From the NCBI RefSeq assembly GCF_000004075.3, contig NC_026658.2:2852001-2916000 (forward strand): DNA of 64,000 nucleotides, in the 5' to 3' direction. Position 1 is the stretch's first letter. Every line of letters starts with the position of its first letter. Shown here in pieces: positions 3,703 through 64,000 of this stretch. The stretch is from Cucumis sativus. Its lineage: Eukaryota > Streptophyta > Magnoliopsida > Cucurbitales > Cucurbitaceae. The position numbers were made by a program, and so were the translations under genes. The notes under the pieces are model-generated. The model was not told the DNA's origin and searched no databases. It was given only the letters and a program-made list of their open reading frames with translations.

Positions 3703-6700
3703 ATGGCAAAACTCTATCTTACTGCTCTAGTTTTGGTTTGCTTTCATTACTTTGCGGTGTCTGATTTTCAAGGTATGAACTGCATCTCAAGGTAGCTTAT
3801 GAAAATTGAGAACTTACTGTACTGCTGCTCATAGTCTTTTGTATAAACATCTGGTCTATGGCAAAAAGATTGTCCATCTGATTTATCTTCATGATGTTTG
3901 AAACAGTATGTAGTTTTGAATAGAAATTGAAATTCTTTTAGCATGTTTGTCAGTTTTAATAATATTAAAAGAAAGATTATGGAAATCACTTCCAAAATGA
4001 CTTTTAATAATTCAAAGTCAGTTTTAATAATATGAAAATTGTATTTGAAAGTGTAAAATTATAACCAACTAAGTGTATTTCGTATTGATTTTGAAGTGAT
4101 TTTAGCAATTTTAAAATCAATCCCAAAATACACATTTTCATTGGCAAAGACAGTATTAAGTGTTTCTAATTCTTTCTTTTTTTTGTTTATTTTTCACACT
4201 ATCTTTGGATATGCTACAAGTCTTTTGTCACATGGAAGATACCTTTTCCATCAGTTCGTCTTTTTGCTCATTTCTTGTGAGTTGGTAGAAAAGCTAGTCT
4301 GAAGTTATCAACAAGTGTGAAAGCCTTTTTTCCCTTGTAAAGGGATACAAATTTGAAAATTTTGTGAGATTAAATCATTAAATAATGTAGTTTTCTTTTC
4401 AATTTCTGATTGCTTCCAGTTGCGCAAATTTACCTGGAATTACTATTATACTGATATTCTCTAATTGCTTGATCACTTGATGAATGTACGTTGTTCTTAT
4501 CACCTTCAGGTGACGCACTCTATGCATTTAAGAAGGCATTGAATGCAACAAGTAGTCAGCTTGGAGATTGGAACCTAAATCATGTCAATCCATGCAGTAG
4601 TTGGTCCAATATTATGTGTAATGGGAACAACGTGACAGCTATGTAAGACATAATTAAATTAAATACACTCTTTTGCTGATCTTTCTATCCATTTAGCAAT
4701 AATCATGTCACTTGTGAGTGCTTAGATGCTCTATATAAATGACTTATTTATTTCATTGTATGAAATATTTTACTTGCCAATATTAAAGGTTTCAAGTCTG
4801 CCATTACTTATATTAAATCTAATTTTCTCAGAACCTTGCCAACGATGGGATTTACTGGAACCTTGTCTCCAGAAATTGCTGTCATAAAATCTCTTTCAAC
4901 TCTGTGAGTACTGTGTTATTTTGTGGACGAGAATTTGCAGCTCTAAATACTTGATGTTTGTGCAATTTAAGCCGGCTTCTTTTATTATTATACTCCAAAT
5001 TCTGGATTTTATTGATCATAATATTCATTGTTGTCTTAAAAGTAAGTTTTAATTCTTCAAGTCAGGTGCTTGGCTTACTTAAGGTTATCTATTCATGTTG
5101 CTCGAGAAAGAGTTCTATTTTGCACATGTATATATAGTATTAAAATTCCATAACTGGAACTTTCTTTATACTATTTTTTTCAAAAGATTGTAAATTAGAA
5201 GATCACCCACTAATACCAACTGGGATAAACTATTATCAACAAAGAACTAAAATCTGTTTTCTTATGATTGGAATTCCTGTAATTTACTAAGCGCAAGACT
5301 TCGTCCTCTTCAGAGATCTAATTTTCTCACATCCCTTGGTCGGATATTTTCTTTTAACCTTCTAGTTTCAGGGAAGTGTTGGACGTTAGACATCCGTATA
5401 TCTGAGATAACCTTAGCTTTGAAAAGCATATTATGATTATTTGGACACTAAATTTGGTTAACAAAACTGGTTTTTGAAATAATCTTCTTATTGGCAATGA
5501 GAAACTTAATTAATATATATTAATCTACTGCAGGAACTTGGAGGGAAATTACATAACTGGAGGGATACCAGCGGAGTTTGGAAACTTGACAAATTTGGTC
5601 ACTTTGGATCTCGGAAATAACAGCCTAATTGATCAAATACCATCGTCCCTGGGTAATCTTAAGAATCTACGGTTCCTGTAAGTAATGGGTTTCAAATTAC
5701 TCAAATTTCAAAGATACCTTATGAGCATTTGCAATACACCTGGGTTTTAGTTGAGATAATGACTATTGACTCCTTATTCTCATTGAAGCAGAACTCTGAG
5801 TCAAAATCATTTAACTGGGAGTATTCCTGAGACGTTGTCAACCCTTCCTAGCTTGATCAATCTGTATGTTTTCAATTATGCATAAGGCTATTAATGGAGA
5901 TTTTCAGATTCGGGGATCTGTGTTCTGTTCTCAATGCCTTGATTGTTACTCTCCTACAGTTTTCTTGATTCGAATAATCTCAGTGGCCAGATTCCGGAGC
6001 AATTATTTCAAGTTTCAAAATTCAAGTACGTGGAACTTTTGAATACTATCAAGGTAGATATTATCATACCTATATATCTGCTATAACATGGCATTAGGAA
6101 ACCAACACCAATTCCTAAAATTAGTGATATTAGGAAACACATCTATCTGATATTTATGGCACGATCATATAGCTCAACAGTTTAAAGCATCTACTTTTTT
6201 TTGAGAATGAAGGTTTGATTCTTTACCTTAAATTTTAGTTTCTAATGAAAGTAAAAAAAGACAATAATTAACTTAAATTTTTGAAGCTAACATTCAAAAT
6301 CTAAAGCATCACTGATCGACAAATGAAAAGGAAATACCATATGTTGCTTGGACATGACAAATCCCATATCCAAAATTGATTTGGTCAAAAGAAAGTAACC
6401 AAAATTATAAAATTTAAACACTTGCTGTTAAGAAAAATTTCCTATTACTACTGTCAGGAGAAAGCAGCAAATAACGGAGAACTTAAAAGAAAGCAATAAA
6501 GATTGGAAATATAAGAATTAACGTGAATAACTCAAACTGAAAGAAAAACCGTGATCAATCAAAAAGAAGTTCACTATGTGAAAATTATTACAAACACATA
6601 GAATTCTCTTGCTGATTCCAACTCCAACACTCTCAAAACTTTTATGCTACTCACACCCTTTTCTTTACTTTCAAACTAGAAAATACAGAAAGATAATTCA

Positions 6701-9700
6701 ACTAGAATTAGGTCACCCAAGCTTTTAGAGTGCTTGGAGCTCATCGCTCTCAGAACTTTTTTGATGTAGAATTGTTCTCATTTAATAACTTGTCAAGAAC
6801 CCTACAATCACAATCTCTATTTTTCAATAGATCTTACAGTGCAATGTAATTTCTATATTCTTTGTCATCCGTTTATTTATTTTTCACCTTCCAAATATTT
6901 TTTTCACAGCTTTTCTGGAAATAAGTTGGATTGCGGCAACAATTCACGTTGGTCCTGTGATTCGGACAGTACAAATTCAGGTTATTGGATCGGATTTGCC
7001 TTAGGTCCTTAGGCTTGTGGAAAATCTTTTCCTCCGTTTTGATAACTTAGGCACCCTTTAGCAGAAAGAGAAATGTGAAAGTTTCGTCATTTTCTCAGGT
7101 GCTTCAAATAAGTCGAAGGTTGGGCTCTTAGCTGGACCTATTTCTGGGTTAATGGTTACTCTTCTTTTGGTCGGATTATTGCTTTTGTTGTGCAAGCATA
7201 GATATAAAGGCTACAAGGGTGAAGTCTTCGAAGATGTTCCCGGTAATTGTTATGACTATCATTGAATTTTCAAAATGGATTATGCAAGCATCATTTATGG
7301 TGACTAGGTTTCATGGATATCGATATCAATGTAAATATAATTGTTTTCTCGGTGCAACCTTTTTTGCCAATTCTTAGTAGCGTTTGTACGTATTAGCACC
7401 TATCTAGAAATACAACTGTGTTGTATTTGTGATTTTTGTCTGAAGCATAGACTATCTAGATGCTACTCATCTAGAGAATTATTCCTTAAAATTTGGTCCT
7501 CTACTAGCATATTGAATTGCTCGAGATAATTGATATGTGATTCGTAGTTGCATAACAAAAATATTTTCCCAACTGGATTCATGAAGAGCTTGTAGAAATA
7601 GTTTCTCATGTTTCTAACTCTTTGATGTAAGTTTTTGTATTACTTGTCAAGTTAACCATCTTATGTCTTAAATGAAATTACTGGATAATTTGAGGTATAG
7701 TTATAATGAATAACAATTTTAAGAATAATAATTAAGTATATAATAACATTTTTTTAAAATCGCAAATATAGCAAAGTCTATTAACGATAGACTTCTATTG
7801 CTGATAGATTCTTATGATTTATTAGATATGGTATATCAGTGATAGATTTCTATCATTGAGATTTTGATAGATTTCGACAGATTTCTCTATATTTGCATTT
7901 TTTTAAATTTTGCTATATACTTAATTATTTTGAATCTAATTGCTATATTTCCAGTTATCGTACTTTGAGTCATTCATTAGTAATTTTATGAAACACGCAA
8001 TAATTTCAAATGTAATCAAGTCACAAGCTGGAAAAGGGAATCAAAATTCCATATGCCTCCACCCCATCTCACCCGCACTAGAACTGAATTTTTTGTTCAT
8101 GGAAGCGTGTCTAAATGTTTTTTTTCCCTAATCTCTCAATTAGGTGAAATTGATCGAAAAATTGCATTTGGTCAGCTGAAAAGATTTGCATGGAGGGAGC
8201 TACAGCTAGCTACAGAAAATTTTAGTGAGGAAAATGTTATAGGACAAGGAGGCTTTGGAAAGGTTTACAAAGGGGTGCTTGCTGATGGCACCAAGGTTGC
8301 AGTGAAACAGTCAACTAATTATGAACGCCTTGGGGGAGATGCTTCTTTTCTGCGTGAAGTTGAGATGATTAGTGTAGCTGTTCATAGAAATCTATTGCGG
8401 CTGATTGGGTTTTGTACAACTCAGACTGAACGCTTATTGGTGTATCCCTATATGCAGAACTTGAGTGTTGCCAACCGTCTTCGAGGTATTAAATCATTTG
8501 CTTGTTTTGGATATGAAATTTGAAAAAAAAAAAAAATCTCACAATTTCTGTTTTCGTTTGAGCAGAAATACTTCAATGTTTGCATATTACATCATATATT
8601 AATGATCTGTAGATCTTGGTTTGGGCATAGGGAAATGAGAGAGTAACCAAGAAAACTTTAAAACTAAGGTCTAAGAGATCAATTGAGTGTCAGGTGCTTG
8701 AGTAGATCCTGGTTTGGGCAGAGGGAAATATTGGCCATGGGCTATTTCTTTCCTGTATCTACTTTTTTCATTTTTCGTAGTACTTGCTCAACCTTCAAAT
8801 ATTTTGATTACGGCCGACTTTTTAAGTCTAAAAAAAATATACATGAAGGCATTGTGCCCCTGTCATGTCCTTGGAAAGTAGCACCATTGTCTTAGTCCAG
8901 AGAACAACAAAATTTTCTACTCGTTTGTATTTAGTACTGAAGAAAGGAGTCCTCCAGCCTCTATAGGGGCCACTAGTTGGAAAATGACTTTTTGTGAGAG
9001 GGCGTGGTGGGTGCGGATTATCACATTCTTGAACTGGAAGGTGGTCTCAAGATCTTTCCTGGGGCGGGCTGCGGATAGGTGAAATTGTTGGGTAATTTAG
9101 CTAACTGGTTGCTACTTTCCCGTTACAACTTGAAGCTTTATAGAATATGATTGTTGTCAGTAAGTATGAACATCATTTCGATAAGTGATTTATAGGTGAG
9201 TTTCAACTTTCATTGTTGCATAGAGAGAAACAACCTTGATAAGTCTTTGGATAGTTGTCCTTTTCCGGTTAACTCCTTGCTCGATTGCTCTGTTCATCAC
9301 CTTCCTGCTCTCATCATTTTATCAGTTAGTCTTTTTCTTTGTCGTTTTTACTTTTACTCTTCTCAATGAAAGCTTATGTAAAATAGTCTTGCAGGATACT
9401 GAGCATACAAGTTACTCATTTAATTCACAAGATGAACTTTGGCCAATTGTTATTGTATTGCCTTACTGATAAATAATTACTACCCCTCTAGCTGATTTCT
9501 TTTGTAATCTCCTATGCCAGAACTTAAGCCTGGGGAACCTATTTTAGATTGGCCTACACGAAAACGTGTGGCATTGGGGACAGCTCGTGGTTTTAGGATA
9601 TCTTCACGAACATTGCAATCCAAAGATTATTCACCGAGATGTTAAGGCTGCTAACGTCTTGCTTGATGAGGATTTTGAAGCAGTTGTTGGTGATTTTGGC

Positions 9701-12332: not shown

Positions 12333-12333
<1 letters not shown>

Positions 12334-12361
<28 letters not shown>
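12334..12361. repeat. (TA)n microsatellite
   Basis: An uninterrupted alternating TA run of about 28 bases. Similar runs occur near 15776-15791 and 43573-43610. Confidence 0.9.
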
Positions 12362-12366
<5 letters not shown>

Positions 12367-13645: not shown

Positions 13646-13795
13646 TCCCAAAATCATCACTTTCCAATTCTTCATCAAACCCCAAATCAACTTTATTAAC
13701 CTCAGCTCTCTACAAAAATTCCCATAAAACATATATCCATATATCTATATCTTTGTAAAGCAAATTAGTACACACTTCTGTACTATAGGTTTTCC

Positions 13796-14197
13796 ATGTC
13801 GGTTTCCTTGGAAGCTTTGGCAATGGCTGGGATTGATTCCAATGAGTGGGCTATGGACGCTGAAGAATGGGAAAGAAACGAGATCGACGTTGTTCCACCA
13901 CATTTATTAGCCGATGAAGAAGATGACGAGGATGGTGATGAACATGTAACGACGAGTACTATTAGTAACTATTGCTTTCCCGTTGATGGGTCATTCGAGG
14001 GATGGCGTGGGAGAGATTGCAAAGCTGATGGTGGCCATGGCCATGGCATTTTGGGGATTTTTTGTAGTCTAAGCAAAGTCATAGAGAAAAGGGCTTCTAA
14101 TGGGATGAGTTCAGTGAGAATAATAGTCAGAACTATTTTAGGGTTTTTGATGGTGATGACCATGAAGATAATTAGTGCACAAAGATCCAAGATGTAA
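13796..14197 (+). CDS. Small acidic SLEALAMAG-family protein, copy 1
   Basis: An intronless gene for a 133-residue protein of unknown function. The N-terminal third is the conserved part: SLEALAMAG (4-12), then NEWAMDAEEWE and PPHLLADEE followed by an acidic stretch (DDEDGDEH). A glycine/histidine-rich linker follows, then a C-terminal part with a hydrophobic stretch (IIVRTILGFLMVMTMKII) that could be an amphipathic or membrane helix. I recall related small plant proteins with the same opening, including one near the Arabidopsis LRR-RLK/PABN block, but none with a known role. The ATG at 13796 is favoured because the second copy starts at the same place in the alignment. A diverged tandem copy lies 2.1 kb downstream. 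Confidence 0.75.
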   Translation: MSVSLEALAMAGIDSNEWAMDAEEWERNEIDVVPPHLLADEEDDEDGDEHVTTSTISNYCFPVDGSFEGWRGRDCKADGGHGHGILGIFCSLSKVIEKRASNGMSSVRIIVRTILGFLMVMTMKIISAQRSKM

Positions 14198-21200: not shown

Positions 21201-21206
21201 CACCTT

Positions 21207-24200
21207 TCATGTTTGAATATTTGACATAACAGATGCTCGAAACGACTCCTCATCTCGTATCAGAGGTGGGATACTCCACGATCCAAACCGATGTGCTGAC
21301 ACCTTACCACCTGATTACATGTCAAAATGATTTGATATGTCTTCATATTTCAGGAATTTTGTGCTTTAAAATGTTGGACCAGTTACCTTCTTTAGTGGCC
21401 TCTTCACATCTCCTTTGGTAAAGTGAGGATAAATGAGGATCCAAAGCTTTTAATAGTTCGTCATACTTTTCCTCAGCCTCGCTCACATATTTTGCCTGAA
21501 AATGGTTACCACACAAACTTAGTATTAAGAATCAAAGACGTGGTACAAGCTGTATATATGCCGGTTACCATGAGTAATCTGTTGAAAAGGATTATGTTTT
21601 GTTCAGTTACAAATTTAATCTTTGAACTTTGATCTTGGTGTTTATTTAATCTTCCAATTTTAAGCTTAACACCAAATCTCTTCTATGTAATTTGGAGCTG
21701 CTTCAGAAATCAAATGAAATTAAAGCTACCTCAAGCACTCACCAGCGCTGTTGGAGCTGAAGCTCCATACATCCGGACAAACATCCGCAGAATATTGAAA
21801 TTATTCTCTAGTACATCATCCTACATGAAGATCATAGCTTTTATTTGCAGCTAAAAGGGTCAGAAAATATATTAGAGAATTGGTAAACTCACCTCATAAT
21901 CAAACCTAACAGAAAGTCAGTGAGTCAACCCAGCATCAAGGGAAACCAGTGTTGTGCTTGCCAAATGATATTCAAATTAATTATTAGTAGACATCAATTC
22001 AGGAGTCAAGCAAAGCTATTGCCTATTAGCAGAACTCAAAATGGGTGATTGTTCAGAGTGCTTGGAAGCAGGAGGAGAGGGAAGAATACTTACAAATCGT
22101 CAGCTATCTCAACTAGCAATTCTGAGATTGATAGAAATTCCATGTGCAAGTCATTAACCTTCAAAAAAACTTCAGCACGACATAATCAAACTAACAAAGT
22201 AAGGTGGATAGCAGATCAAAAACAAATTGCAACGCTAACACATCAGTTAACAACTTAATATAAGAAAAAATAGTAACAAACACAGTTAAATCAGAAGATT
22301 GACAAAATTACTAAAGAACACAAGAAGGTAAGTCCATTAGGCTTATAATTCAACCACTGGAAGCCCCCAGATATTGTCTGTAGGACTAGTACATATCGTA
22401 ATGTATTATCTCTAGCAAGTACTTCATGAAAAGTTAGATTATTAAGCTTCTAAAATGAAATATTAAATGGCCAAAGCTGTAATTGACATAACCTTCTATC
22501 CTAGAAGTGGAAAGTTCGATCTCCTATCCTATTATTGTTGTGCTAAAAGAATGAAATATTAAACAAGAAAGAATTACCTTCTTTCCTCTCAACTGATACA
22601 AAAGAAGGTTCAACACTCTATAATCAAAAGATTTCAGATGAATAGCCCGCATTACATCCTCGATAGAGACCTAAACAAAATAGTTGGGATCAGCATGAGC
22701 ACAAGGAGTCCCAACAAGAAATAAATAAAAATAAATTAAGACTACAACAACTACCTTCCATTGCTCGCCAATGCACCACATAGGTCCCTTTCCAAGGCCC
22801 AATACTCCTCTCCACTTCTCAGTTCGTGGACCAATCTAGGCATTGGAACAAACAAAGAAGTCAATATTGCCATTCAAAGTAAGTCCCCAACTTCTCAAGT
22901 GGAAAAGAACATGGTTTGGAGCAAATCATCAGACCTGTCTGTCAATAAGCCATGTGATTTAAGGAGATTAATAAGTGGTTGAAGTGGATCAGATCTGATA
23001 GCACTTAGAATCTTAGTGCTCTTTTCATTTGTTTCCTAAATCTCAGTGGAAAAATCATATGAAAGTTCGTCAGCTAAATGCACAAGTGCTTAATTGCCAT
23101 GTTTCATCTTATCCAGTATTCTATTAACACCTGAGATTCTCCAAAAGCAAATCCACCCAAAACTATCTTCTCATTCAAAGTGTCCAGCTGCAGCATGAAG
23201 ATAAATTCATTATGCACAAACAAAACAGAACCCAAGGTCACTGAGATCATAGTAAAGACATGATTGGGTTATAGAAGTGGCCAAGTGGGCATGAGCATCA
23301 AAAATAGAAAAGGTGAGCCATCTGATTTACCAACCGAACCAGCTTCAGTAAGTCGACTTAATGATACATCTTGATTTGGGCCAGTTGCTAAAGCCCATCA
23401 AAAAAATTGTTTTAAAAAGAAGAATAAATATAAACAAATAAATAAACGTGTGTTTTGTGGCAATGTGTTGCTGCGGCTCCTTAGGAATAACTTCTTCCTA
23501 TTCTCGTGTCTCCTTTCTCCACCTTTATTTTCTTCTCCTTTCTCCACCTTTATTTTCTTCTCCTTTCTTCTTCTTTTCTTTCTTCTTTTCTTTCTTCTTT
23601 TTGCTCCTCTTATCTTTCTTCTCTTCTCTTTCTAGCTTCATCTCTTCTTTCTTCTATTCTTCTTCCTTCTCTTCTCCTTTTCTTCTTTTCTTCTCCCTCT
23701 CTTCTTTTTAATCTTCTCCTTTCAGTACTTTTTTCGTTCATTTCACCAAACAATGAACCTCTTCAAAACTAGTTAGCTGAACCCAAAACTGACACCGAAT
23801 GATCAATGATCTCCTCTATATAGATGTACTACTTCAAGAAACGTGTATTTATATTCACACCACACTCGGATGAAGTTTCTTCATTCTGTCAAAGTTCATT
23901 TTAGCAAAAGATATTCAAATATTCTCCATCCACTAATTCCTGTAGTTGTTTACATTGAGACCAAAGCAAAATTCAAATTCATTTCTTCTTACTTTCTTTC
24001 TTTCTTTGTGTTTTTCTTAATAAGAAACAATTGATGTAACATCCTCCAACCTTCGTATTAATCATTGAAGAGTTTTTTCTCTTCTCCCTCTCTCTTTCTC
24101 TTTAATTTTTTTTTTTCTTAACTGCAACATTATCCTTGAACCTTTGTACATCTAATTTTCCACCAAAGACAACTAAAGAAAAGAGTAGGACATAACCTGA

Positions 24201-26678
24201 TATATGTAACTTTCCGTAAATGACAGAATGGGAAAGTATTTGAATACAGATTGAGGTTTGTTTGCATCCATTCCGTGAAACATGAAATAAGATCTGAACT
24301 GCAGAATGAATTATAATGTCAGCTTGTTATATGGCAGAATTGTCATAGCCTAAGTTTACTAATCCAAAAGATTCTAGACATAAAAGAATTATTTTAAAGG
24401 AAAAAGGCCTAAAATCCGAAAAGAAAATCATGACAGTAATTGTATGCCTTGAGACCTGAATTAAAACAAGAACCGAGATTACAAAATGGGGAGAGGTGAT
24501 AAGACATCTAACAAGCCCGTAATATGACTGTTAAAAGCGGTAAAGTAAAATAGACACTGAGTTACATGGAAACCCAAGTACCGGAAGAAAAACCACAATT
24601 GGCTCTCTTATTAATTTCTCATATTAACAAAAGATACAAAAGGGAAGACTTATGATAAAAGGGATAGGAAATTAGGGTAAATCCTTCCTTGGGCCAAGCC
24701 CATTAATTCTAACAATGACTTACAACAGCACGTAAATAAATAAATAAATAAAACCTTCCCAGTTTAGACCAGAAGAAGAGGAAAAAATCAATAAAAAGAA
24801 AGTCCCTCAATTGAACAAACTAACCACTTTGAAGACAATGTTTTTAAATCCAACCGATTCCAACTTCAATTTTGACATGTTGTACCACTCCTCAATTTTC
24901 ACTCCATGTAACCACCTTCTAAACTAAGAAGCATAGATACGAATACAACACACACATAGGACACGACACAAACATCATGACACTTCATTTTTTAAAAGTC
25001 TAGGAAAGCATTACAAAATATACATTGTTAAAAATATATACCATTTTAATATAAGGAAATACAAAGTTAAAAAGTTGATGCATTTGTATGCTTAAAAAAT
25101 GAATTTGGTGCATTTTGTTCCCAAAATTTATTCGAAGTTAAGTGTTCTAGACATGTCTGACAATGTTGGACCTATATTGCCTTTGTATAACTAGTAAGTG
25201 GTAACTAGCACATCCACTGCAATAACAAGTGTCCAATATATGTCCAGCAAGTATCAGAGTGTACAAGTGTCTAAAACGTGTCAAACACGGACACCCTAGC
25301 CAAATCAAAGTGTCTGCTTCTTACTTCTAAACCTGAGATTCCAATGTGTTGGAGAGGAAATACCAGCAGTTCGTCACAAAATCAGCAATAGTGAATTCTT
25401 CGGTGAGCACCTCCAAGTTCCTCAGTTAGACCCACTAACCCTAAAACCTTAGCTTTTCTCCATCAACTGATTTACTAGTGGAATATTGCTACAAAAGAGT
25501 CCTGCACTCAGCTAATTTGAAACCCCTTACTTTGGAAACAAAGAGGGGACAGCAAGGAAGAGACTGAACCAACCCAGCCCAGCCCATCCACAGGTCTGAA
25601 CCATATATGCTGCCGATACGACCATATGCCATCAGAGGTATTTGCCAATGGAAGTCCCCAAAATATTTAATATTCAATCAAAGATTCAAAACAAAAATAA
25701 AAAGTCTATACCATGCACTTACAAAATCTTCAAGTGTAGAATTTGCACGCTGCATTGCATCCAAGCCAACCATAGCCATTTCCCCACAATAGTTCTGGGA
25801 AGAACCAAGATCCAGCTTATTGTCACAATAAGGCTGCAAAGTGTTTTCCATCTCCTTTCCCCTATAGTCTGAAAACAAATTAAACCATAGCAACCAATCA
25901 ATAGTAGGGCCACTACCTCCGCAACAAACAAATAAAATCTCTCTCCAAGATTAAACATCAATATATAACCCTACAACAAATACCAATAAACAAAATCATT
26001 CCACAACTTTCCTTATTTTATTGATCTACATCTACATTTCAGTTAGATCATAAGAATAGATATCAAAGCAAGCTTAGCTAAGTTGTAATTGACATAACAT
26101 TCCATCCTAGAGGTGGGAGGTTTGAATCCCAACCCCCAATTGTTGTACTTAAAAAAAAAATCATAAGAACATAGTACCTCATCATCGCCAAGCAGCAATG
26201 ATACATCGCCAAGAAACTCTTCCGAAAACTGTAGAACAAAAGAAAAGTTGATGGGCAGGAGTCAAATGAATCAAAGTCATCAGTGGTTTAGCTTGCACTC
26301 ACCTTCAGGCATGTATTCAGAAACCAAATCGAATTTATCGTCAAAGTCAAGCTCTCCACATGGTTGCACCTAACATACAAATACAATTCAATTATGAAAC
26401 AAACTCACATCAGAACAACGATTCATCAGCACCAATAAATCAAGCTGCAATCAAGAAACATACCATTTTACTAGGGGAAGTGGAGGAATTGAAATGTTCA
26501 AATTGGATGAGGAATTTAGAACGTAAAGCAGAGATGAAGTTGAGTGAGAAAGTACCAAAAGGAGAAGGAAATTGGCAATGAATCGATTGGAGGAAGAAGA
26601 AGAAGTGATGGGGATTCCGCGGGAGTCCATTAATGTAATGAGTGTATGTACTTGTTCTAGTTTCCTTAGTTCTTCCAT
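21207..26678 (-). CDS. Conserved plant protein of unknown function, 14 exons
   Basis: Exons on the minus strand: 26556-26678, 26303-26369, 26178-26228, 25723-25868, 24197-24298, 23131-23187, 22935-23035, 22755-22835, 22578-22670, 22094-22158, 21893-21905, 21743-21820, 21387-21495, 21207-21310. The product would be about 396 residues, mostly helical and soluble, with no signal or membrane helix. Landmarks are MEELRKLEQVHTLITLMDS, FMFHGMDANKPQS, SGEEYWALERDLC, HLKSFDYRVLNLLLYQL, LHMEFLSIS, NNFNILRMFVRMYG and RRCEEATKEG. The pattern feels familiar from other plants, but I cannot name a function. One exon is only 13 nt. Frame across exons 3, 4 and 8 works only if one T is removed from 26225-26228 and one G is added in each of two runs (minus strand of 25861-25864 and 22757-22758). 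With those changes the exons sum to exactly 397 codons. Confidence 0.72.
21893..21905 (-). other. 13-nt micro-exon
   Basis: On the minus strand the segment reads GTTAG, then GTTTGATTATGAG, then GTGAG. It supplies the residues FDYE between ADDL and DDVLENNF, and it is the only way to keep frame between exons 22094-22158 and 21743-21820. Both splice sites are canonical. Confidence 0.8.
22460..22565 (+). repeat. tRNA-like SINE copy in an intron
   Basis: A-box-like TGGCCAAAGCTG at 22468-22479 and B-box-like AGTTCGATCTCC at 22513-22524, with the TGTAATTGACATAAC word between them and ATTGTTGTGCTAAAA at the end. The copy at 26075 shares these words. Confidence 0.5.
23480..23730. repeat. Polypyrimidine tract with short tandem repeats
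   Basis: About 250 bases of almost pure C/T on the plus strand within an intron of the unknown gene. Near 23509 a unit of about 25 bases (CTCCTTTCTCCACCTTTATT and following) occurs twice in a row. The open frames across it are only low-complexity Ser/Phe/Leu. Confidence 0.8.
26070..26160 (+). repeat. tRNA-like SINE copy with A tail
   Basis: A box TAGCTAAGTTG at 26075-26085 matches the consensus fully. B box GGTTTGAATCC at 26119-26129 has one change. The element ends ATTGTTGTACTT plus ten A residues at 26151-26160. It is the best preserved copy in the window and lies in an intron. Confidence 0.65.
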
Positions 26679-27842: not shown

Positions 27843-30362
27843 TTATATGATCACAGATTGGCCATTCACTACCCGACAGTTCCTTCTCACTTCCCCGGCC
27901 GGCCAGATTGCAAGTCGCCCATCTTCGACATACCTTCCACAAATGCATCAAAAAATGCACTTTGATTTTTGCTAAAGAACCTCACGTACTTTCTAGTTTC
28001 ACCGAATGTGTAAAGAGTTTCATCAGAATTCAACAAACCCTCCCACCAACCAAGTCCTTGAAGTACTGATTGTCAAAAACGTAAGGTGTGGAATCAAGGT
28101 TGAGTGTCACATTTTCATCCACGCCATGAGGGCATCGCTTGAAGAGCTCTTCTCTGAACCTAGGCTCGATTGCTGGGTCTGGTCGTCCTGTGCCGGATTG
28201 GTTGTAGAGTCGAAACATGATGGAGAAACATCGGCCTTTGCCAATTGAGTGCGAACCTGAAAGAGCTACCAAATCTTTGACGGAGAGGTTGTATTTGCTG
28301 AAAAGGTCAATGAGAGAAGTTGCATTGGCTCTTGGACTTGGCATGATTTGGTCCGAGTCCTCTTGGCTTGCTGTTAAACTGTCCAGCCGTCCCAGTTCTA
28401 CTGGCCAATCAGGGCCGCCTGTCTGAATAAATACAAGTTATGTTCATAAAAATGTGAATTTCATCTCAAAATTAATTATAAATTAGAGAAATAGCTCATA
28501 ACTTCATCCTATTATCTTATTTTTGTTTTCAGATTGAATATATTCCTTCAGACTTAATGAATTTATTTCTTTCTTGTTTATGACATATAAGTGAAAGATC
28601 GAACATTCTAAGTTGATAATTCAAATGTGAATCGATTGAGTTATGTTTATTTTAGCTTAATGAATTTAGATTCGATAGGGTTAAAAACAATCAATAATAA
28701 AAGTGGTTATATTTTGATTTCTTTGGACGTGAATTCTTGACAAAATGAGCAAGAGGATGACATTTGGAAAAGTAGTTGGGGTGGGAGGATGGGGATGGAC
28801 CAGTTTGTTATGAATTTTTGGCAGGATTGTTGGTGGAGCTTTTAAACCATTGGAAGTTACTTGCTTATGCAAGGGTTACTGTCCAACTCTGCTTTATTAA
28901 CAAGCTACTATTATTATTGGGTACCTTACTAATTCAGTACAAGGTATCAATCCCACTTAACTCTTTTCAAACAACTTATGAACCATACAAATAGTTGTGA
29001 TACTTTTCTCATCACTTACACCTCATTTCGTAACTCTTTGAATTTTGATTTTTTAAACTTAAGCTTATATACATCATTTCACAACCATTGTTTAGGACGA
29101 TGTTTGATTGTCTATATTTTAGGAGTATTTTTTACTAAGAATGAGAAAACTATGAACATGGAATTAAGAGAAAATGAACCCAATTTAAAAATGAAAATAA
29201 TAATTCTACCCCATCTTAGATCGACTGAATTAGGAAACATGCATGAAAGTTGATTTCTCTCTTTCGAAGATAAAAAAATATCATATGCTAAAAATATTCT
29301 CTCGTGTGTTTTAAGTTGAAAAATGGTGTCACATCATGTCGGTCTGATTTTCTATGTCTCATACAACTTTCTTTTGTTGTAGGGTAAAAGATATAACAAT
29401 AGTTCGATTTTTATAATACATATATACACATTACTCCGCTCTTTCTTATACGGTAGAAATACTCTCTGATTCTATAAATTCTTACTTTTCAATTCAATGT
29501 TCTACTTCTTATCCTAAATATTTCTTTTTAAATTAAAATCCAACGATTATCACGAAGTATTCAAATTCTATATTAAATCGTTTTAAAAAATGGAGTTCAC
29601 TCAAATTTGGACTGTTGTTTGGTAGCAAAAATTTCAAAACAATTAAGTGGAATTAATGGAACTGAAATGTTAAATTGAAAGGCAGTGTTGGTTGATTCGT
29701 TCCTCTTTCTTGTGTTTTCGGAATTTCGATTTGTGGATTTTAGGAGAAGGATTGAGAGTGAAAAACGAAAGCAAAGAAGATAAACATCAAGAAAAACAAA
29801 TCTCAGGCTCCAATAAGAATTTCATAGCACAAAAAACAGAGAGGTAGAAGAAACGGAAGTACTCACCAAAAAGACAGCGTCTCTGGATGCCATAATTATG
29901 ATATCTGCACAAGAAACAATGCCAGGACAAACCTTCTCCAAAGTCTCTTTCACTTCATCAACGACTTCGTAAGATCTAAGCGAATTAATGTTAGCAAGAG
30001 AGAGTTTCTCTCCAAGCATCGTCGGCGTATCATCTAGCAACATAGAAGCATCACAGCCCTGAATTAGACAAAGGAAACGCCGATTCAGAAGCCAAACAGG
30101 TAAAGAAAAAAAGCAAAATCCAAAAGAACGAACAGTTGGGGGGATCAATTACATTAACAAAGCAATCGTGAAACTGGAAACGCATAACGGAGGCGACACT
30201 ACGAGGTTCTCTGATGAAAGCTTTGTGCATCACAGAACGGACTATGGCTTCGGCCTGAGGGCATGAGTTGGAGTAGAAATTGAGCTGGAGTTTGGCCGGA
30301 GAAAGGGATGGAAAGTGGAAGAGGAGGAAGAAGAGGAAGAGAGGGAAGAAGGTATTGGCCAT
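27843..30362 (-). CDS. PRX17: Class III peroxidase, PRX17-like, frameshifted
   Basis: A secreted haem peroxidase of plant cell walls, using H2O2 to oxidise phenolics. Three exons: 30153-30362, 29867-30058, 27843-28422. The signal peptide starts at MANTFFPLFLFF; an in-frame ATG nine codons upstream (30389) is the alternative. RFQFHDCFV carries the distal Arg and His (about 61 and 65), GCDASMLLDD the calcium site, and LSGSHSIGKGRC the proximal haem His (about 192). The closest family member I recall is Arabidopsis PRX17 (At2g22420). Read literally the frame ends at a TGA at 28030. Adding one C to the run at 28038-28040 and one to 27893-27896 restores the usual C-terminal part (KMGDLQSGRPGE, NCRVVN) and gives 327 codons plus stop. 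Confidence 0.87.
28580..28648 (-). repeat. tRNA-like SINE copy in peroxidase intron
   Basis: On the minus strand an A-box-like TAACTCAATCG (about 28632-28642) is followed by a B-box-like AATGTTCGATC (about 28599-28609). Confidence 0.4.
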
Positions 30363-40937: not shown

Positions 40938-43571
40938 TTGGAATCTCTTCAACAAACTCAAATTCTTCTCTCTATTTCTCTACAAATGTTACTGCCTTCT
41001 CAAAATCTCTTCAGATGTTCCAACCGTCTGAAGCTTTGTTCCTTCACCAACTCCCTTCCCAGAAACAACAATCACTTCTGTCCCTCATTTTCATCTTTAT
41101 CCCTCCAAAGCCTCAATCGTTTCCACTTTCATGCACATAAGTTACTGACCACTCATAACAATTCAACTTCCCGCCACCGGATTTATTGCCATTACGGCAT
41201 TGGAGTTTACGAATCCGAAGACAATGCACGGAGTGGCGATTTCAATTTAGAATCGGTTCTTTTGCTTTCGGAATTCATTTTTCTCTTCTCTTCTGCTGTT
41301 TTCTTGGTTGTTTTTGTTTTGAATTTCGTGGGTTCTAGTTCGAAAAAGGGGATTTTGATGTTGATGGGTGATAGGGGTTTAGTGTGGGGTTTCCTCTGCT
41401 GGTGGCTACGGTTGTTCTTAACTCGTGGATTCGAAGGTTGCAATGGAGACGAATAAGTTGGGGGAAAACGAGTGATGGGTTGAAGGTGAATTTGTTGGAT
41501 AGGTTTGAGAAATTGGAGGAGGATTTAAAGAGCTTGATGATTGTGATTCGGGGTTTGTCTCGGAAGCTTGAGAAGTTGGGCATAAGATATATGGTTACAC
41601 GAAAAACACTGAAGGATCCAATTGCCGAGGTATTATTATCTCTCTCTTTTTTGTCTATGATCTGTTTTGATACTTGCAACATGTTCATGAAAGATGAATT
41701 GAGTTGGTTTTATTCTCCTTCGGGTTTAAACCTTTTCAATCCAGTCTCCTTGAAGAGAACATGATATGTATAGCCATTTTTTGTTTATCTAAACCTGAAA
41801 TGCATTCAGCATTTCCATAATCATGCTGAATTTCTGTGGGTTGTAAGCAGAATTCGAGAAACTGAGGTAACAATATGTAGGATGAGAGATGGAAATTGAT
41901 GTATGAGCTCGTCTATTTGTTGTTGAAAATTAAAACATGTTTTTACTCTTGATACATTATACATGTACACGAGCGAACATTTAATCAAGTGTATGTGTGT
42001 ATAGTTTTGTAAGATAAAAAATCATGAAAGAATACTAGGGCATACAAAAATCTAGTCCACCAAAAAACAAGTCTTTTAAGATGATTAATTGTGGATATAT
42101 GTAGCCAACATGAAGCATAATTCACTTGTTAACACTTGCTCTTTTCCTTGGGGTTGGGGTTCAAACCCCAAACTTCACATTGTTGTAGGCAATATAAAAC
42201 AAATGTAGGTCAATGTATATTGATACATGGGATGGGAATTATTGTATGGTTTAGATTTTTCATTGTGCTCCCTAAAAATTGTAGGGTTTCTTTGTTGGGT
42301 TTGATGCAATTATGTGAAGAACAAGAAAACAAAAGACAGTTTAAAAGAAAGTGGTGAACTAAGTTTGTAGTATGTTGAAAATTTTCAATACAATTGATTT
42401 CGTTTCCTCTCATTTCTCAAGTAAGTTTTATTTGATTACTTTTTATGAGTTCACATGCTTCCAACAGTCGCTGTGCCCAACTTCTATGAAACTTTGAGCG
42501 GATGTTTTGTTGTTATTTTGTTTTTTGTGTGTGTTCATTTCTTTAAGATTGAGTGTGAAATCTGACTTTTAACCCACTATTTTCCACAAACCTCTAATCA
42601 TTTGCATGCTATTAAAGACTGCAGTTTTAGCTCAAATAAATTCTGAGGACACTCGAACTTTGGCTGTGCAAGAAGATATTCTTGAAAAAGAATTCCTTGA
42701 GATGCAAAAAGTCTTGCTAGCCATGCAGGTAAAATTTAAAATGATTATTATAACTGATAAACAGAACTCTTTAATTATTTTCAAATTAATACCCTCTATG
42801 TGCTGTTTATTGGATGGATGTTTGAGAGGGGATGAAGGCTGTTTTCACAATTTAAATTAACACCCTCTATGTGCTGTTTATTGGATGGATGTTTGAGAGG
42901 GGATGAAGGCTGTTTTCACAATTTATAGGCAATTGTAGACAGGCTTCTATGATTTGTGGAATTCTTGATTTTGTTGAACTTGTTTGATTACAGAATCTTC
43001 TGATACATCTTTATGCTCTTGTGGTACTCTTTTTTTTTTTTCCCCTTGTGATCCTGAAGTTAGCTTTATATAGAAAGACGGTGATTTTATTAAGATTTCA
43101 TTGTTTGTTAAAAACTGATGGAACTTGCTGTAATGAGTTAATGTGTAGGAACAGCAACAAAAGCAACTGGAACTGATTGTTGCTATGGGAGAAAAAAGGA
43201 AACTCATGGAAAGCAAACAAACGCGGGATCAAGAACAGACAAGAATTGATGGACAAAATTCAGCCAATGTGGAATCAAAAGAACTGGAAGCTTATGAAAT
43301 CTGAGTTAGGATCTTCATTAAAAAATTTCCATTCATTAATTATTCACTTTTTCTTGTGATTTTGATCTAAAACCTGACTCTTCCTTAAGCTTATAACTGA
43401 AAGAAGTAAATAATTAATTAATATCTGTAAGGAGCATTCAAAACTTATTAGGCTTAAGTTTTCACTAAAACCGAAGTGGACAAAATTTAACGGAATTGTA
43501 GCACTTCACGGCTGGTGGTTATGGTGTTGGTCATGTAGCTTTCACTGGTAAACAAGGATTCTAGCAGGGAT

Positions 43572-50268: not shown

Positions 50269-50299
<31 letters not shown>

Positions 50300-52506: not shown

Positions 52507-54574
52507 TCAGGTGATTGTTCCTTCTTTCTGTTGAAAGCTCCTCCTCCTCATCAAAAGATCCCAAATCTCCTTATCAATGCCTTCTTCTTCCTTGAATTCC
52601 TATCTCCTTCTAACTCATCCAAATTCCCTTCTTCCAACTGATCCAGATCCTCACCATCAAAATGCATCAGCTCCCCATCTTCACTATACTGAGACAACGA
52701 TGGCCTCCTCTCGTGCAGCCTTGCCGAACCAGGTGAATCAACATTCTCGTCAAAAATGGACCCTTTAAGCGTCTCCTCCATTTCAGGCTCTTCATCTTCT
52801 GCTTCTTCTTCCACCTCCTTCTTCTGTGGTGAGATTCTCAACTCCAAGAAACTAAAACTGAAAGCTTTCCCTAACCTTTTCCCAAATGTATCCTCCTTCT
52901 CGGCTGGACTCGGACTTGGATTCTGATTTGGACTTGGACTCAACGGCGGTTTTGATTTCGTCATCTCCACTTGCTCTTTTCCTTCTTCTTTGTTCTTGCT
53001 CTCCTCTTTGCTCTTGTTCTCCTCTTTGCTCTTGCTTTCCTCTTTACCGTTCCCTTCTTTCTTGGTTGCTTCTTCTAGCAATTGCTTCAACTCCTTAATC
53101 TCCTCTAGAGCTGAAGCTTGGCTGACTTTTAGAGTCTCATTCTCAGTGCTAACAAAATCCAATGCATTTTCCTTCTCGACTAAACAATCTTTTAGCTGTG
53201 AATTCTCCTCTATTGCAATTCCTGCAGCTTCCTTGGCCACAGTAGCTTCATTTAAGGCTTGTTTTAGAATGTCTCTTAATTTCTTGATCTCTTCTTTTGA
53301 TGTCATGTTCTTGAGATCGGCTAGCCTCAGCGAATCCATTAAGCGGCGATTCTCTTGTTGCGCATTGTATCTGTCATCTTCAGCTCTTCTTATACAATCC
53401 ACTAAGCTTGTTTCTCTTCCACTCCATGCTAATAGAGATTCTTCTGCTTCTAATCTCAGCCTATCTACTGTGCTTTTGTATAAATCAGCCTCTTTTCTTG
53501 CCTCTTGTAACAGAGTTTTGTTCTTTTCTTCTATGGTTTTCAATGTTGTTCTCAAGTTCTCTGTTTCTTCCTTTCTTTGCTTTAATTCCTCTTCACTTGT
53601 GCTGTATTTTCCTTTGAAATGATTGGCTTCTGTTGCTACTTCTTTTAATGCCATAGCTAGATCATCCATGGCCTTCTTGTTGTTTTCCTCTGCTTCTGTG
53701 GCTAACTTTAGCTCGTTTTTTAGCAGAGCCAGATTTTGTTTCGTCGATTCGAGCTCGAATTTTAGGCTTTCGAATTCGTGGTTTCCTGGAATGTTGTGGT
53801 TGTCATTATTGGTGTTGGAAGAACATTTTTGGAGCTTTTCATGAAGGGATTGGATTTCTAGCTTTGACTCTTCGAGGGAAACCTTTGCTTGTTCTAGCTG
53901 TTCTGTTTGTGCTAATATTAAATCCTTTGTTTTCTCCTCTGATTCTTTGGAAATTCGGTACTTTTTCTCCAGTTCTTCGATTCTTGATTCTGTTTGTAGT
54001 TCAGAATTTTTCAAAACAGAGAGCTGCTCTGTTTTCTCTGCCAATTGAAGCTTTAATCCCTCAGCATTTTCCACGGCGGAGTCTTTGTTTCTCTTCACAG
54101 ATTTCAATCCCTCAGCCTTTTCCACGGCGGAGTTTTTGTTTCTCTTCACAGATTCCAATCCCTCAGCCTTTCCTACGGCGGACTCTTTGTTTCTCGATTC
54201 CAACTCAGAATTAAGCTTTGTATTGATCTCATTCGCCATTTTCTTCACATCTTTAAACTTTGGAAGCTCTGTTGAATCATCTTCTTCCACATTGAATTTC
54301 ATACCTACCTTCTCCATTGGTTGATGTATTTCATAAACTACGATCAAATCCTCTGTTTTTAAGGAAAAAGAAAGGAAAGAAAAAACACAAAACACAACTG
54401 ACCCCAACAAACAAAAGCAAAACCCAGTTTCTATAACTATGGAAACATTGTTTTTAATATAACAAAAAGAATGAAAAATTGAAGAAGAAGATGAAGCAGA
54501 AAGGGTCAATTAGAGAGGAAAGAGAGAGAGAAACTTACAGAATCAGAGTAAGTTGGAAGAACACGCAATTCCAT
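52507..54574 (-). CDS. Long coiled-coil protein, WEB/myosin-like family
   Basis: The main exon runs 52507-54352 and codes for about 603 residues from MEKVGMKFNVEEDD (ATG at 54317). A short upstream exon at 54539-54574 (MELRVLPTYSDS) probably precedes it; joining them in frame would need one further base, so the true start is unsettled. Most of the protein is heptad coiled coil with LEAEESLLAWSGRE and KLRDILKQALNEA, as in plant WEB-family proteins of chloroplast movement and related filament-like proteins. Near the N terminus a 17-residue unit (AEGLKSVKRNKNSAVEK) occurs three times. A Lys/Glu repeat and a Ser/Pro-rich stretch lie toward the C-terminal acidic region. The frame ends early (stop at 52551); adding one G to the run 52560-52562 (minus strand) gives an RRFGD ending with a basic tail, stop at 52507. 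Partners and exact role are unknown. Confidence 0.78.
54055..54205 (-). repeat. 51-bp coding tandem repeat, three units
   Basis: Three head-to-tail units of 51 bases code for three versions of a 17-residue block in the coiled-coil protein. Plus-strand anchors CCACGGCGG, CCACGGCGG and CTACGGCGG lie at 54071, 54122 and 54173. Confidence 0.85.
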
Positions 54575-57700: not shown

Positions 57701-58369
57701 AGTGCGGGTTCTGAATGGATTCATCTTTTAGGCAAAATCATAAAGCCAGTAAATATAGCAATGATCTGATGTCCCTTCACTCTACAACATTTTTATATCA
57801 TGAACATAGCATAAACCACACGTGCAGCTGATTTAAAAAGTCGAGGATAGTAGCCAAATGATAAGAACGAATTATAGATTTAGGGATGAAGGCGAAGATA
57901 AAACAACAGCACACCATATCAAATTGCAGGAAGAATTACGTTGCATAAAGGAACATAAACATGAAACCACACATTAGCAGGTGGGAAAAAAATGATGAAT
58001 CGAGACAAATCTGAACTACAAATTAGATATGATAGGTTTAGGTTATCCAACAAATATTAGTTTGGCTGCAATACCCCAAAAACACAATTCATCAATGGAA
58101 ATACAGAATTAAGCTCCTCCATCCTTTTTAAAAGAACAAAAAACAAAATCATCCACAACTAAACATTAACATGCACAACCAAAAGCATTATGCCTTTTTT
58201 ACCATATTCACTACAAGTTTTCTAGTATAAAACTATACTACCAACCCTTGCTAAAAACAAAAAATAAGAACCACCCCCATCATCATCCCTTCATCATCAT
58301 CATCAATTAGGTCTTTTGATCACCTCCTTTGCAGCCAATACCATTCACCAAACAACAATACAACATCTT
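54750..58369. other. AT-rich intergenic region
   Basis: No gene supported over 3.6 kb. There is plain AT-rich DNA to about 57000, then a GC-richer stretch at 57040-57530 with only broken frames, possibly a decayed mobile element. The part right of 57800 probably includes the H3.3 3' UTR. A CATCAT run is at 58275-58303. Confidence 0.5.
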
Positions 58370-59091
<722 letters not shown>

Positions 59092-59569
59092 CTACAGAAA
59101 AACAAACCCCAACTCCAACTCAATCACAATTCGACATCATCCAACACAATTTTCATTCTAGGAATCTTTACAGAACGCCTACACGAGATTTCAGAAAGTC
59201 GAACGGCACTACCACACAAATCCTCCTATCTAATTAATACCCAAATCTATTTCCTAATCGCATGCACTCATAAACTAAAAAACATACAATACAAAATCAC
59301 TAAAGACATTCAAACGGGAGAAATTCGAAAAGGCATCCGAACTATGTAACCCAGGGAGATCCAGAAAGCCCTAATCTCTCCTAAACCTAAGCCCAGAAAC
59401 AAAATTGAGAGCGTTGAACGACGGCAAAGAAATAAACCATAGAAGAAAACAAAAAGATCTGGAAACAAATTGACTACTTGAAAATCAATCTAAAAACCTG
59501 GCCGAATTTCAGAATAATGATGAAAGAAGAAAAGAAGAAAAGAAAAAAGCGAGAAGAATTAAGACAAAC
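59092..59569 (-). other. Leader intron of H3.3
   Basis: On the minus strand a donor CTTCAG|GTTTGTC lies at 59570/59569 and an acceptor TTCTGTAG ends directly before the ATG at 59091. Plant H3.3 genes commonly have a leader intron, and these often raise expression. Confidence 0.7.
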
Positions 59570-59659
59570 CTGAAGTCGCTACGGCGGTTCTTCTCTCTCG
59601 AACAGATCCTTCTCTTCGTCAAAGAAGCCAAAAGTTCAACGATAAGTGCAGTTAGAGCA

Positions 59660-59667
59660 TATATATA
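59660..59667 (-). promoter_or_regulatory. TATA box of H3.3
   Basis: TATATATA about 90 bases upstream of the leader donor site on the minus strand. It would place transcription start near 59630, leaving a leader exon of about 60 bases. Confidence 0.6.
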
Positions 59668-59699
59668 GCGTCATAAAAGAAGAAAGAATCTGAAGGATC

Positions 59700-61078
59700 G
59701 AACGGTTAAGAGAGCATATCCGTGTGTTTTTTAGGTGTACGAATCTAACGGTAAATGAGGGATTGAGTTGTGTTTTCTCGAGTACAGTGAACGGCCACGA
59801 TGTGATAGTGAAAGGGTAGACGAGGATCGTGAGAATACAATACTCGTTTCCTATTGGTTGGAATCGCGATAAATCTGTGGCAATTCCTTTATTTTGGGTT
59901 ATTGGGGGATTAGAGAATGAAACGTGAGATGATTACCCTTTGCAGGGCAGTTTAGATTTTGAATTTGTCAACAAAAAGTTTCCTATTTCTTTTTCTCTGT
60001 TTTTCTTTTTCCATTGGTGGACTAAAAACTGACCAATCAACTCATGCCATGTAGGATTTATCCTTTTTTAGGAGCTGGAATTTCAATTTTTTTCTTGCAA
60101 ACATTTCTTTAAAAATTATAATTATCTGTCTTTCTTTTTGTCTATATAACAGAGTCCTAATATTGGTGATTGAAAATTTGTGAAATGTTTGCATATTTTA
60201 TATGTTAGGTGGCAGATCGAACTTATTTGAACTCTTAATTATCAGTATTTATATAAATAGACTAATAGAATCCTTAACATTTAAAACTTAGTTATTTGGT
60301 CTTTTTAAGGATTGTATCAATTAAATTCCAAAACTTGACTTTCATAAGTAAATCAATTATAAATCTCAATTAGCATTACTTATAAGACCCATCCATTGTA
60401 TACATGTAAGAAGTGTTGCATTGAGCTCGAGATCAAAAGCTTGATTCTCCCCAGGTGAAACGAAGCTGAAGCAAGCAAGCAAACATAGTTTGAGAAGAAG
60501 TTCATGAACTTGGAAAGGGTTCCATATAATAATTGATAATTCAAAATCGAACAAACTCAAGTTACAAAGTGAAACTTCTAAACATCTGTCACTTTAGTAT
60601 AAGAGAGAGAGTTCTACAAAGGAACCGATTTTACAATCCCGATCTGCCACCATTTCCAGATAAATTGAAAAGATGCTGATTTTGCCGGGTTTGGAGAGGG
60701 AGACGAGTTTCATTTTTTTCATATGAATTTCAATTCCAAATCTTTTCCCTTCCCTTTGTTTTTCTTTTTACAGTAATAAGCAAAAAGAAAGAAAGAAAGA
60801 AGAAAAGAATCTTCAAAGCTTAATAGAAACCTACAATAAATTATCACACTCTCGGCTAAACTAAACACTAAACCCACCTTCAAACTTAAGAAACCAATAA
60901 AGATGCCGACCACCGTATCACACTACCAGTGATTCATGACACCAATTTGTGAACTGTGATTATACTTCGACTCTTGAGAGACCAATGGTATTATGTTTGA
61001 TCGTGGACTGACCTTGAGAAGGCAGACTTTGAACACGAATCAGGTGGGTGGTCGGCATTCACAATATCTAGACTGTGA
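59700..61078. other. H3.3 upstream region and 3' flank of SCAI
   Basis: The left part is the H3.3 promoter region. The right part is the 3' UTR and flank of the SCAI gene; it contains a 12-bp inverted pair (60902-60913 and about 61047-61058) and two near copies of ACTGTGATTAYACTTCG (60954 and 61071). No other gene is seen. Confidence 0.5.
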
Positions 61079-64000
61079 TTACACTTCGTGAAAGTTAAAT
61101 AAGTCAGCGACATTAAGGTGCTTTGCAAGACGGCGAATTGCTGAGCTGACAACTCCAGAATTTGAAGAGACGGAGTCGGGAAGACAAGGCAGGCAAACAG
61201 GAAGGTCGTCGTCTTCTTTAGTGTTGAAGAATGATAGCACGGATCGGCAGAATATAAATCTGCAGATTATGGAACAAAAGAAAGAGAATTGTTATTTACA
61301 TTAACAATGGCTAGAACATAAGCTTCTGTATGTATTAGCATTGCATAAGTAATGCGAGCAGCGGGAAAATACCTGAGAATGAGACGGCGTAAAAAATGAT
61401 CAGACAAAACTTGGGCCCAAACGATATTTAAGCTAGTTGATGTACAAAGAAATTATTTCCCAATCGGAAAATGCAGAGGAGAGTATGGTATCAGCATCGT
61501 TGTAAACATCCTATAAAGGAGAACAAGTTGTGGATTAAATGGAAGTCCCGAACATATATTGAAGAGCAAGTTTTGATCTTATAATTAACTTACTATATCC
61601 AAATTGGCCGAGGACAGGCCAACCATTTCGCAAAATGCCGGTAGAGGTGCAGTCAAGAAAAAAGTAAACTGACTTCCTGATTGAATTGTATCAACATTTA
61701 AGGGATTCTTGAATGCAGGTCTCAATGGTGAAAGAAGTATGGCGGCAGTTTCTCCTCTCTCTGCCCCATGTAGAACCTGAAAATAATATAAATTGACAAA
61801 TTGAAATGACTTCTTCTTGGAAGAGTGCATGTATTAAGAACATATTAAATTTTAACGCGAGACCAGACAGGTCTATCAACAAGAAACTATCAGTCAGATA
61901 CTGCCGAACTAGCTTTTGTTGTCTAAATGAAAACTTTCATAGTGAAAGTGCAGCAAGAAAGGTCAACGCAATATTCTCCCTCAAAACGCTGTTGTTTTGT
62001 ATGAGAAAAACAAATCAATTAAAGGCATCGAATGGCCTTATCTATGTCATCTCATTCTCAAAGCCAAGTAATCACATATATGATGATACTCAGACGAAAA
62101 ATGAGAAATATCCACCTATTAAAAGGAAATTTAATTTCCAATATAGCAGAATGAAGCAAACCATTATGACCTGGCAACACTTGTAAAAGTTTTGACAAAC
62201 CTGCCTTGAATGCATGGCTGTTGTTACTGTCAACTATCAAGAAAACAGGTCTACGTGTAAAAGGTATTATATCACCAGGGTATAAAACGTTTGGACCTGA
62301 AAATTAAAGATAAAAAGAGGTCCATGTCATCAATGAAATTGGAAACAACAGAGAGTTGGAATGAGTAAGTATCCACATCATTCAATAGCAAAGACCATTG
62401 AGAGAGGGTATGAGAGAATTCTGTACCTCCACTACCCCTATGCCCAAACCACAAATACTCATCATAAAGGTCACTTGATCCTGGCTTCTCACTCTTACAA
62501 GATTCCGCTAGAGCATTACAATTTTCTCGTGAATTCTGGGCTGTGACTTTATTTTTCAAGGATTTTCTTGATTCCCCAACACTCGCCATTTGATTGACAC
62601 TGTTTTGACAGCACTTCCCTACACCAGTTATCATTGAATGTCAATAAACAATATTAAAAATGAGAATAAGAAACTAAAATCACTTTCACTTTGTTATAGG
62701 ACATTAACCTGCTGCAGACAGATAAATTCAGCATGATACTATCTGGGAGGAGCTCCTCACAAACTGTCGCCATGACCTGCTCACAAACCAAGAAGCTCAA
62801 TTATAAGTTCTTCCAATTTTGAAAGCCACACCAAGCACCTATTTTGCACATATAGAAGGTGATGGAGAGTAGAACATAATGGGTTGGGTCTTGGCAGAAA
62901 AAGTTCGGAAGGAGTGGATTTACCAAGCCAACAGAAAAAACAGAGCTTAGAGGGTATTTTTTCAGTCTAAATTCTTTGCAAGTGTGGAAGTTAGTGCTAT
63001 CATTTCAACTTGTTATGTCAAGCATTACAACACTGAGGTCAGAAAGGGCTAAAGTTGTATGGCTGGCGAAGACTTTTATACCCAAATATAAGAAGTGCTT
63101 TCTATCTCATGATATGGATACCTTCAAGTCACAATGGCCAGTGAGAAGATATTGGCCGTATCCTAGTTCTGTAGGCAAATGATAAAAGTACCCTATCTAC
63201 CGTGTATAAATAGCCACTGAAGTCACGTTGGCCACAATCATCATTGAATGTCATCTAAGCTCATAGATCATCACCGAGAGGACAAGGTAATACCCAAGTA
63301 GCAGGCATTGGAAGTTATTAACCAGTAACCACTAGGCCAATCCATAGTGGTTGGTAGTTTTTAGTGTTTGTTAGAGGAGATTGTTAATAGCCAGATGGAA
63401 CCATACACAAAGGAAGAAAAGAGACTAGATAGGTACATATTTAAAAACAGAACTATTGGAGAAAGATCCCTCTATACATGCTATCAACCTTTGTATTCTC
63501 CTTTACTCTAGTAGTATATATCGGTTCTTACCATTATTGGATCACATGCAAAGCTATTCAAAGCGAAAAGTGCAAACAGACTCAATTCATAACTTCAGGG
63601 CATTCTATAACATGTAACAAGCTATAAGGCATAACTCGTAAGTCCTAACTAATTCAAACAAGTAGTAAAGCAATATCTGGAGACCAGAACATCCAAAGAA
63701 ATAAAATGCCAAAATTGTCCAATTAAAAAAATAATAATTAAAACACAAATACTCACTAAAAGAGGGAGAAAAGGCTGCAAATTGAATAAATAAAAAACTT
63801 TGCTATGCAACTGAAGCAGAAAGAATGTTGTGAATAAATTTAATTAAACTTACAGCTATCAAATGAGTCACAGAAGGTCGATGGAGGATAGCTTTCTTCG
63901 GATTTGGAGGTAAAGATGGATCGGTAACATCAGTAGCTAAGTTGATATCAATTATTCCAGATGCCCCAGAATGATCAATGCCAGCTCCATTTTCATTTGG
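61079..64000 (-). CDS. SCAI: SCAI-like protein (UPF0682/DUF3550), 5' part outside window
   Basis: Seven exons visible: 63854-64000 (continues past the right edge), 62709-62776, 62427-62618, 62205-62296, 61594-61776, 61373-61510, 61079-61259. It matches the plant SCAI family (Arabidopsis At3g03570). Animal SCAI is a nuclear cofactor that represses MRTF/SRF transcription and takes part in double-strand break repair; the plant role is not settled. Landmarks are ATVCEELLPDS, YPGDIIPFTRRPVFLIVDS, VLHGAERGETAAILLSPLRP, FTFFLTAPLPAF, LNIVWAQVLSDHFLRRLILR and the end LFNFHEV. Exon 62709-62776 has one extra base (T run at 62727-62728 plus strand) and exon 61373-61510 one extra A (61450-61452). Removing them restores YLSAAGK and WEIILCTSTS. 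The intron after exon 62205-62296 starts with GC. Confidence 0.9.

Follow-up and report, generated by a model that had tools for sequence, protein, structure and literature searches.

Two described cases come closest to the frame breaks reported here. In bacterial genomes, errors in repeat regions remain after short-read polishing; reads prefer the repeat instance that is free of error, and none are left over the instance that carries it (Polypolish, Fig. 1A of PMC8812927). In the Vertebrate Genomes Project (VGP), a false duplication left frameshifts in one copy of TLK1, with the other copy attracting the reads (Extended Data Fig. 11a of PMC8081667). The cucumber 9930 v3 assembly was built from PacBio reads into 7 chromosomes and 78 unplaced super-scaffolds (226.2 Mb) and was polished twice with Pilon under the setting -minmq 10, by which 156,931 indels were corrected and after which 30,546 homozygous small indels were still seen (PMC6582320). 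We take -minmq 10 to mean that reads of mapping quality below 10 were ignored. Here we examine 64,000 nucleotides (nt) of Cucumis sativus chromosome C4 (C4:2852001-2916000; hereafter the window, with positions counted from its first base), for which a first-pass annotation had claimed twelve one-base frame breaks in seven genes, H3.3, SCAI, a peroxidase and a receptor kinase among them. We consider it highly probable that the breaks are residual consensus indels of long-read sequence, kept because this part of the chromosome was assembled redundantly, twice on the unplaced contig C57 and once on the unplaced contig C59.

The redundancy emerged from a search of the cucumber genome itself (226,625,048 bases in 88 contigs). 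The window itself has a GC content of 28-36% when measured in 4-kb steps. Queried with any of three pieces of it, the genome yielded three more near-identical places: two on C57, a contig of 410,025 bases, and one on C59, which has 208,472. Combining the search with alignments to 70 + 70 kb of C57 (7,811-78,000 and 330,001-400,106) and 60 kb of C59, we found that C57 carries the full window (1-64000) twice, inverted, and that C59 carries window 7210-64000. Over the whole 64 kb, the first C57 copy aligned with 3 substitutions and 45 gap openings and the second with 4 substitutions and 43 gap openings; C59 aligned over 56.8 kb with no substitution and 152 gaps. The coordinates of the C57 copies are mirrored, every pair adding up to 407,917, and the two differ from each other at only a handful of places (57050, 58258-58259, 60693 and 62935). 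Because they are nearly identical to each other, they were counted as one witness. Over the stretches compared, C57 is probably a palindromic contig that arose from an inverted-read or graph artefact.

What separates the copies from the window is almost entirely a loss of bases. Relative to the window, bases are missing at 44 differences in the first C57 copy, 43 in the second and 152 in C59, and the one extra base occurs in a single C57 copy (60693), with none in C59. Substitutions account for 3 of the 48 differences in the first C57 copy, 4 of the 47 in the second and none of the 152 in C59, so that for every substitution there are more than ten indels. Runs of one base hold more than their share of the single-base losses; 8 of 35 (C57) and 26 of 127 (C59) fall at single bases, and some losses span 2-7 bases or lie outside runs. 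Only two runs, 57050 and 58259, are short in both a C57 copy and C59, and of these 57050 alone was found by exact position. We read the differences as consensus errors because real divergence between duplicates would give mostly substitutions; the window, C57 and C59 appear to be one piece of DNA that entered the assembly several times, with errors in the consensus.

Of the twelve frame breaks proposed in the first-pass annotation, we graded six as shown (on the strength of homologues, a paralogue or a further copy) and two as well supported; three (22757, 25861 and 26225) are only plausible, and the one at 43277 was not supported. Four of the eight supported sites carry a surplus A or T in the window. 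In the kinase exon of the receptor kinase gene (plus strand), the T run at 9591-9594 is one base too long in the window and in C59. C57 has TTT here, as does a tandem paralogue (86% identical) present at four places (C4:2848857 and its three copies), and in the C57 reading the exon runs without a stop. C59 shares the surplus T and has in addition lost a G shortly before it, regaining the frame after a garbled stretch. In the H3.3 exon (minus strand), it is the window and C57 that have one A too many, at 58692-58696; C59 gives a complete H3.3, its letters identical to PDB 7ux9_E over 136 residues. The other two sites lie in SCAI exons on the minus strand, where C57 is one base shorter than the window and C59. 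At the A run 61450-61452 C57 stays in frame, and its reading matches PF12070 with 115.9 bits over model positions 418-526, compared with 55.0 bits over 418-489 for the window reading up to its stop, the C57 query being the longer one, since it takes in the remainder of the exon and some of the following one. At 62727-62728 a T run is probably one base too long; C57 offers a SCAI-like stretch there, the joined reading scoring 17.2 bits against PF12070, under the cut-off of 25 bits, and in the window this exon has no stop of its own. By comparison with homologues and sister contigs, the breaks at 9591, 58692 and 61450 can be taken as shown and that at 62727 as well supported.

At the remaining four supported sites a base appears to be missing from all copies alike. 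Two of these are in the last exon of the peroxidase gene (minus strand): a G at 28038-28040, a site through which peroxidases in the PDB run, and a second G at 27893-27896, indicated by the conserved GE(I/V)R.NC end. With both Gs restored, the product has matches to 25 different peroxidase sequences of the PDB at E up to 1e-20, variants of horseradish C1A making up many of these, and in the two alignments shown the match crosses each site and reaches the conserved terminal GE(I/V)R.NCR.(V)N. In a membrane protein gene (plus strand), one base is lacking at 41374-41389. The codon score changes frame at 41374, and a paralogue at C6:26856330-26856725, 47% identical to residues 2-134 of the mended query, is without a stop across the site; Pfam gave no match for the mended protein and none for the unmended frames. 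At the 3' end of a coiled-coil gene (minus strand), the best codon scores on the two sides of 52560-52562 (10.6 and 5.8) fall in different frames, pointing to a further missing base. The match of this gene to a paralogue on C2 was not significant (E 0.57); its C-terminus after mending resembles the family pattern. The codon scores, which lack strength at a number of sites and were trained on genes that overlap with certain tested flanks (receptor kinase, peroxidase), were relied on mainly for 41374, 43277 and 52560. Judged from sequence, the breaks at 27893, 28038 and 41374 count as shown and that at 52560 as well supported.

The three plausible breaks fall in an unnamed gene on the minus strand. 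A possible missing base at an exon end (22757-22758) is suggested only by the splice phase to the next exon. The other two offset each other around a single 51-nt exon (26178-26228), which is shifted by one against both its neighbours and has 26225 at its start; the base possibly missing at 25861-25864 is needed only with this exon included, and if the exon is skipped the gene is in frame unchanged. The base concerned at 26225 or 25861 is not fixed. The exon has a coding-like codon score, above all 17,290 noncoding 51-mers, a pool of which part also trained the model background. For this gene Pfam gave no match on the unmended frames and the PDB none; a similarity of the mended protein to PF22524 was below the cut-off (E 0.13) and was taken as chance. 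The same gene contains a poorly determined stretch, window 25439-26555, with 25 difference entries between copies in 1.1 kb. The site at 43277 (43274-43303, plus strand, in the membrane protein gene) is probably not a break and was not counted: a single frame has the top score before and after it (8.0 and 3.2), and the 51-codon open frame in it runs on to a stop that all four copies have at one position. The paralogue match on C6 stops here at residue 36 of 51.

The coding sequence considered, about 8.1 kb, holds eight supported breaks, where the published rate of residual indels would predict 1.1; the coding intervals were set by hand, are approximate and leave out the unnamed gene, and the rate itself (30,546 small indels in 226.2 Mb) was obtained by read mapping and may be an underestimate in regions like the window. 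In the same window TBCC is open over 377 codons, as are two LANC-like reading frames. Elsewhere in the genome, 73 peroxidase matches outside the gene reach model position 231-237, among 150 matches listed of 175 (counted by hand, with duplicated places counted apart), compared with position 213 for all four copies of the window gene; two other listed matches end at 156-157 and the rest match earlier parts of the model. No internal stop was found in any of the 86 matches scored for the glycosyltransferase family UDPGT (131 candidates), and five full-length H3 matches exist elsewhere. Some H3 and peroxidase control matches contain stops, perhaps introns. The genome controls are supportive, not proof. 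A separate observation concerns three H3-like sequences (C3:18073966, C3:18518870 and C6:14396067) that cover model positions 37-122 only and have internal stops; they are perhaps dispersed H3 fragments.

The first-pass annotation had ascribed the breaks to systematic base-call error under a fixed rule, A/T runs too long and G/C runs too short. Its observation that all breaks are of one kind holds for the eight supported sites, which split into four surplus A/T and four missing bases (two-sided Fisher p 0.029), the base being fixed by evidence at six of them. It fails as a general rule: single-base losses in C59 comprise A 30, C 32, G 31 and T 34, and 27 such losses in coding intervals where the window is taken to be in frame (counted by hand, with 58692 and one two-base loss left out) divide into 17 G/C and 10 A/T. 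A base-specific error acting genome-wide could draw further support from C57, where missing single bases (A 20, T 6, G 7, C 2) are rich in A/T at 26 to 9, unlike the 64 to 63 of C59 (Fisher p 0.013), and from the G/C losses of C59, which exceed what composition predicts (63 of 127, binomial p 9e-5). Five C57 coding differences are informative, two more at exon edges having been left out; C57 has the better fit at three, all A/T, and the window is in frame at the other two, both G. A genome-wide error of this type is hard to square with losses that span 2-7 bases or fall at single bases, and with the lack of comparable breakage among the matches elsewhere; we regard it as unlikely. A base-class tendency exists, but it is not a rule. 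There is a similarly small chance that the long-read consensus here carries a two-sided base-class bias, with A/T insertions and shared G/C deletions, that survives in falsely duplicated regions; if true, this bias could flag such regions genome-wide.

A real and recent segmental duplication in several copies, with genes decaying in some of them, would account for three further near-identical copies in the assembly. We hold this to be extremely improbable, because ordinary divergence shows the opposite of this preponderance of indels, the coordinates of the C57 copies mirror each other, every pair giving one sum, which copy is intact varies from site to site, and the broken genes include H3.3. 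Pseudogene decay would bring substitutions and nonsense changes besides indels; the copies differ by 0-4 substitutions, and, in agreement with the first-pass annotation, no nonsense substitution was noticed in the frames read. Its attribution of the breaks to assembly error and not to gene decay is likewise borne out by near-identical contigs that differ almost only by indels, one of them having the fitting length at four breaks. It is probable that the genes are intact in the plant itself and that the breaks exist solely in the assembled sequence. It is very unlikely, though somewhat less so than decaying duplicates, that some of the all-copy sites, such as both peroxidase sites, are true frameshifts in this line: four copies do agree at 27893 and 28038, but the rest of the peroxidase exon keeps family-conserved residues in shifted frames to the C-terminus, and breaks of the same kind occur in neighbouring genes.

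For residual indels in a redundantly assembled segment, a plausible course of events can be drawn from the distribution of correct readings. Among the eight supported sites, four have a run of fitting length in a sister contig (C59 for H3.3; C57 for the receptor kinase and both SCAI sites), and at the other four all copies agree on the error. During short-read polishing, reads would have been drawn to a copy with the correct sequence, leaving the wrong copy uncorrected; alternatively, ambiguous reads may have been discarded, with the same outcome. Attraction of reads to the correct copy fits the first four sites. The errors common to all copies (peroxidase, membrane protein and coiled coil) would stem from shared long-read data and could have been kept because reads over such sites would be ambiguous and would fail the mapping-quality limit. 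The likeness to TLK1 in the VGP work (PMC8081667) lies in a second copy that draws the reads while the first keeps its frameshift indels. The copies there are two haplotypes, whereas the cucumber copies show hardly any substitutions, as would suit a single inbred haplotype, and in cucumber one contig carries the segment twice, inverted. The repeats in the Polypolish example are true bacterial repeats; those in cucumber are probably false, made by the assembler. This is an ordinary artefact with a cause already well described.

Several points weigh against this account. The case rests on assembled sequence, and that the window comes from the cucumber 9930 v3 assembly is likely but inferred. At the four sites with a missing base, the base is absent from every copy, and the case for an error there comes from homology or codon frame. 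With only 57050 and 58259 short in both C57 and C59, the window is therefore almost without private surplus and would represent better data or a partly polished copy. The excess of missing A over T in C57 (20 to 6, binomial p 0.005) is a strand asymmetry that the account does not explain. Truncated matches could also hide breaks in the controls, for example the short UDPGT match at C7:5133010 or the peroxidase matches that end at 156-157.

A literature search found no paper on these sites, which is not proof of absence, and in the main text of the manual 9930 re-annotation (PMC11207753) a word search returned none of frameshift, frame shift, assembly error, sequencing error, indel or scaffold. 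Elsewhere in the assembly, UDPGT matches at C24:96385-100374 and C4:13487873-13491862 have identical scores and an identical spacing of 3,519 bases, and C24 is perhaps another redundant contig. Peroxidase matches at C5:8163290-8174562 and C5:8916716-8927982, about 753 kb apart, have identical scores and are joined by an inverted one, a segmental duplication that may be real or false; another peroxidase match pair with identical scores and spacing lies on two chromosomes (C1:11506345-11507922 and C3:40328113-40329690). Within the window, a 142-codon open frame at 13769-14197 has an acidic start and no Pfam match, and its later part may be out of frame.

The practical warning is that genes under redundant contigs can look broken, as H3.3, the peroxidase, SCAI and the receptor kinase do here, when the genes in the plant are probably whole. 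Wherever a chromosome segment recurs in an unplaced contig, a pseudogene call should follow re-polishing or comparison with the twin, which in this window supplies a fitting reading at four of the eight supported sites.

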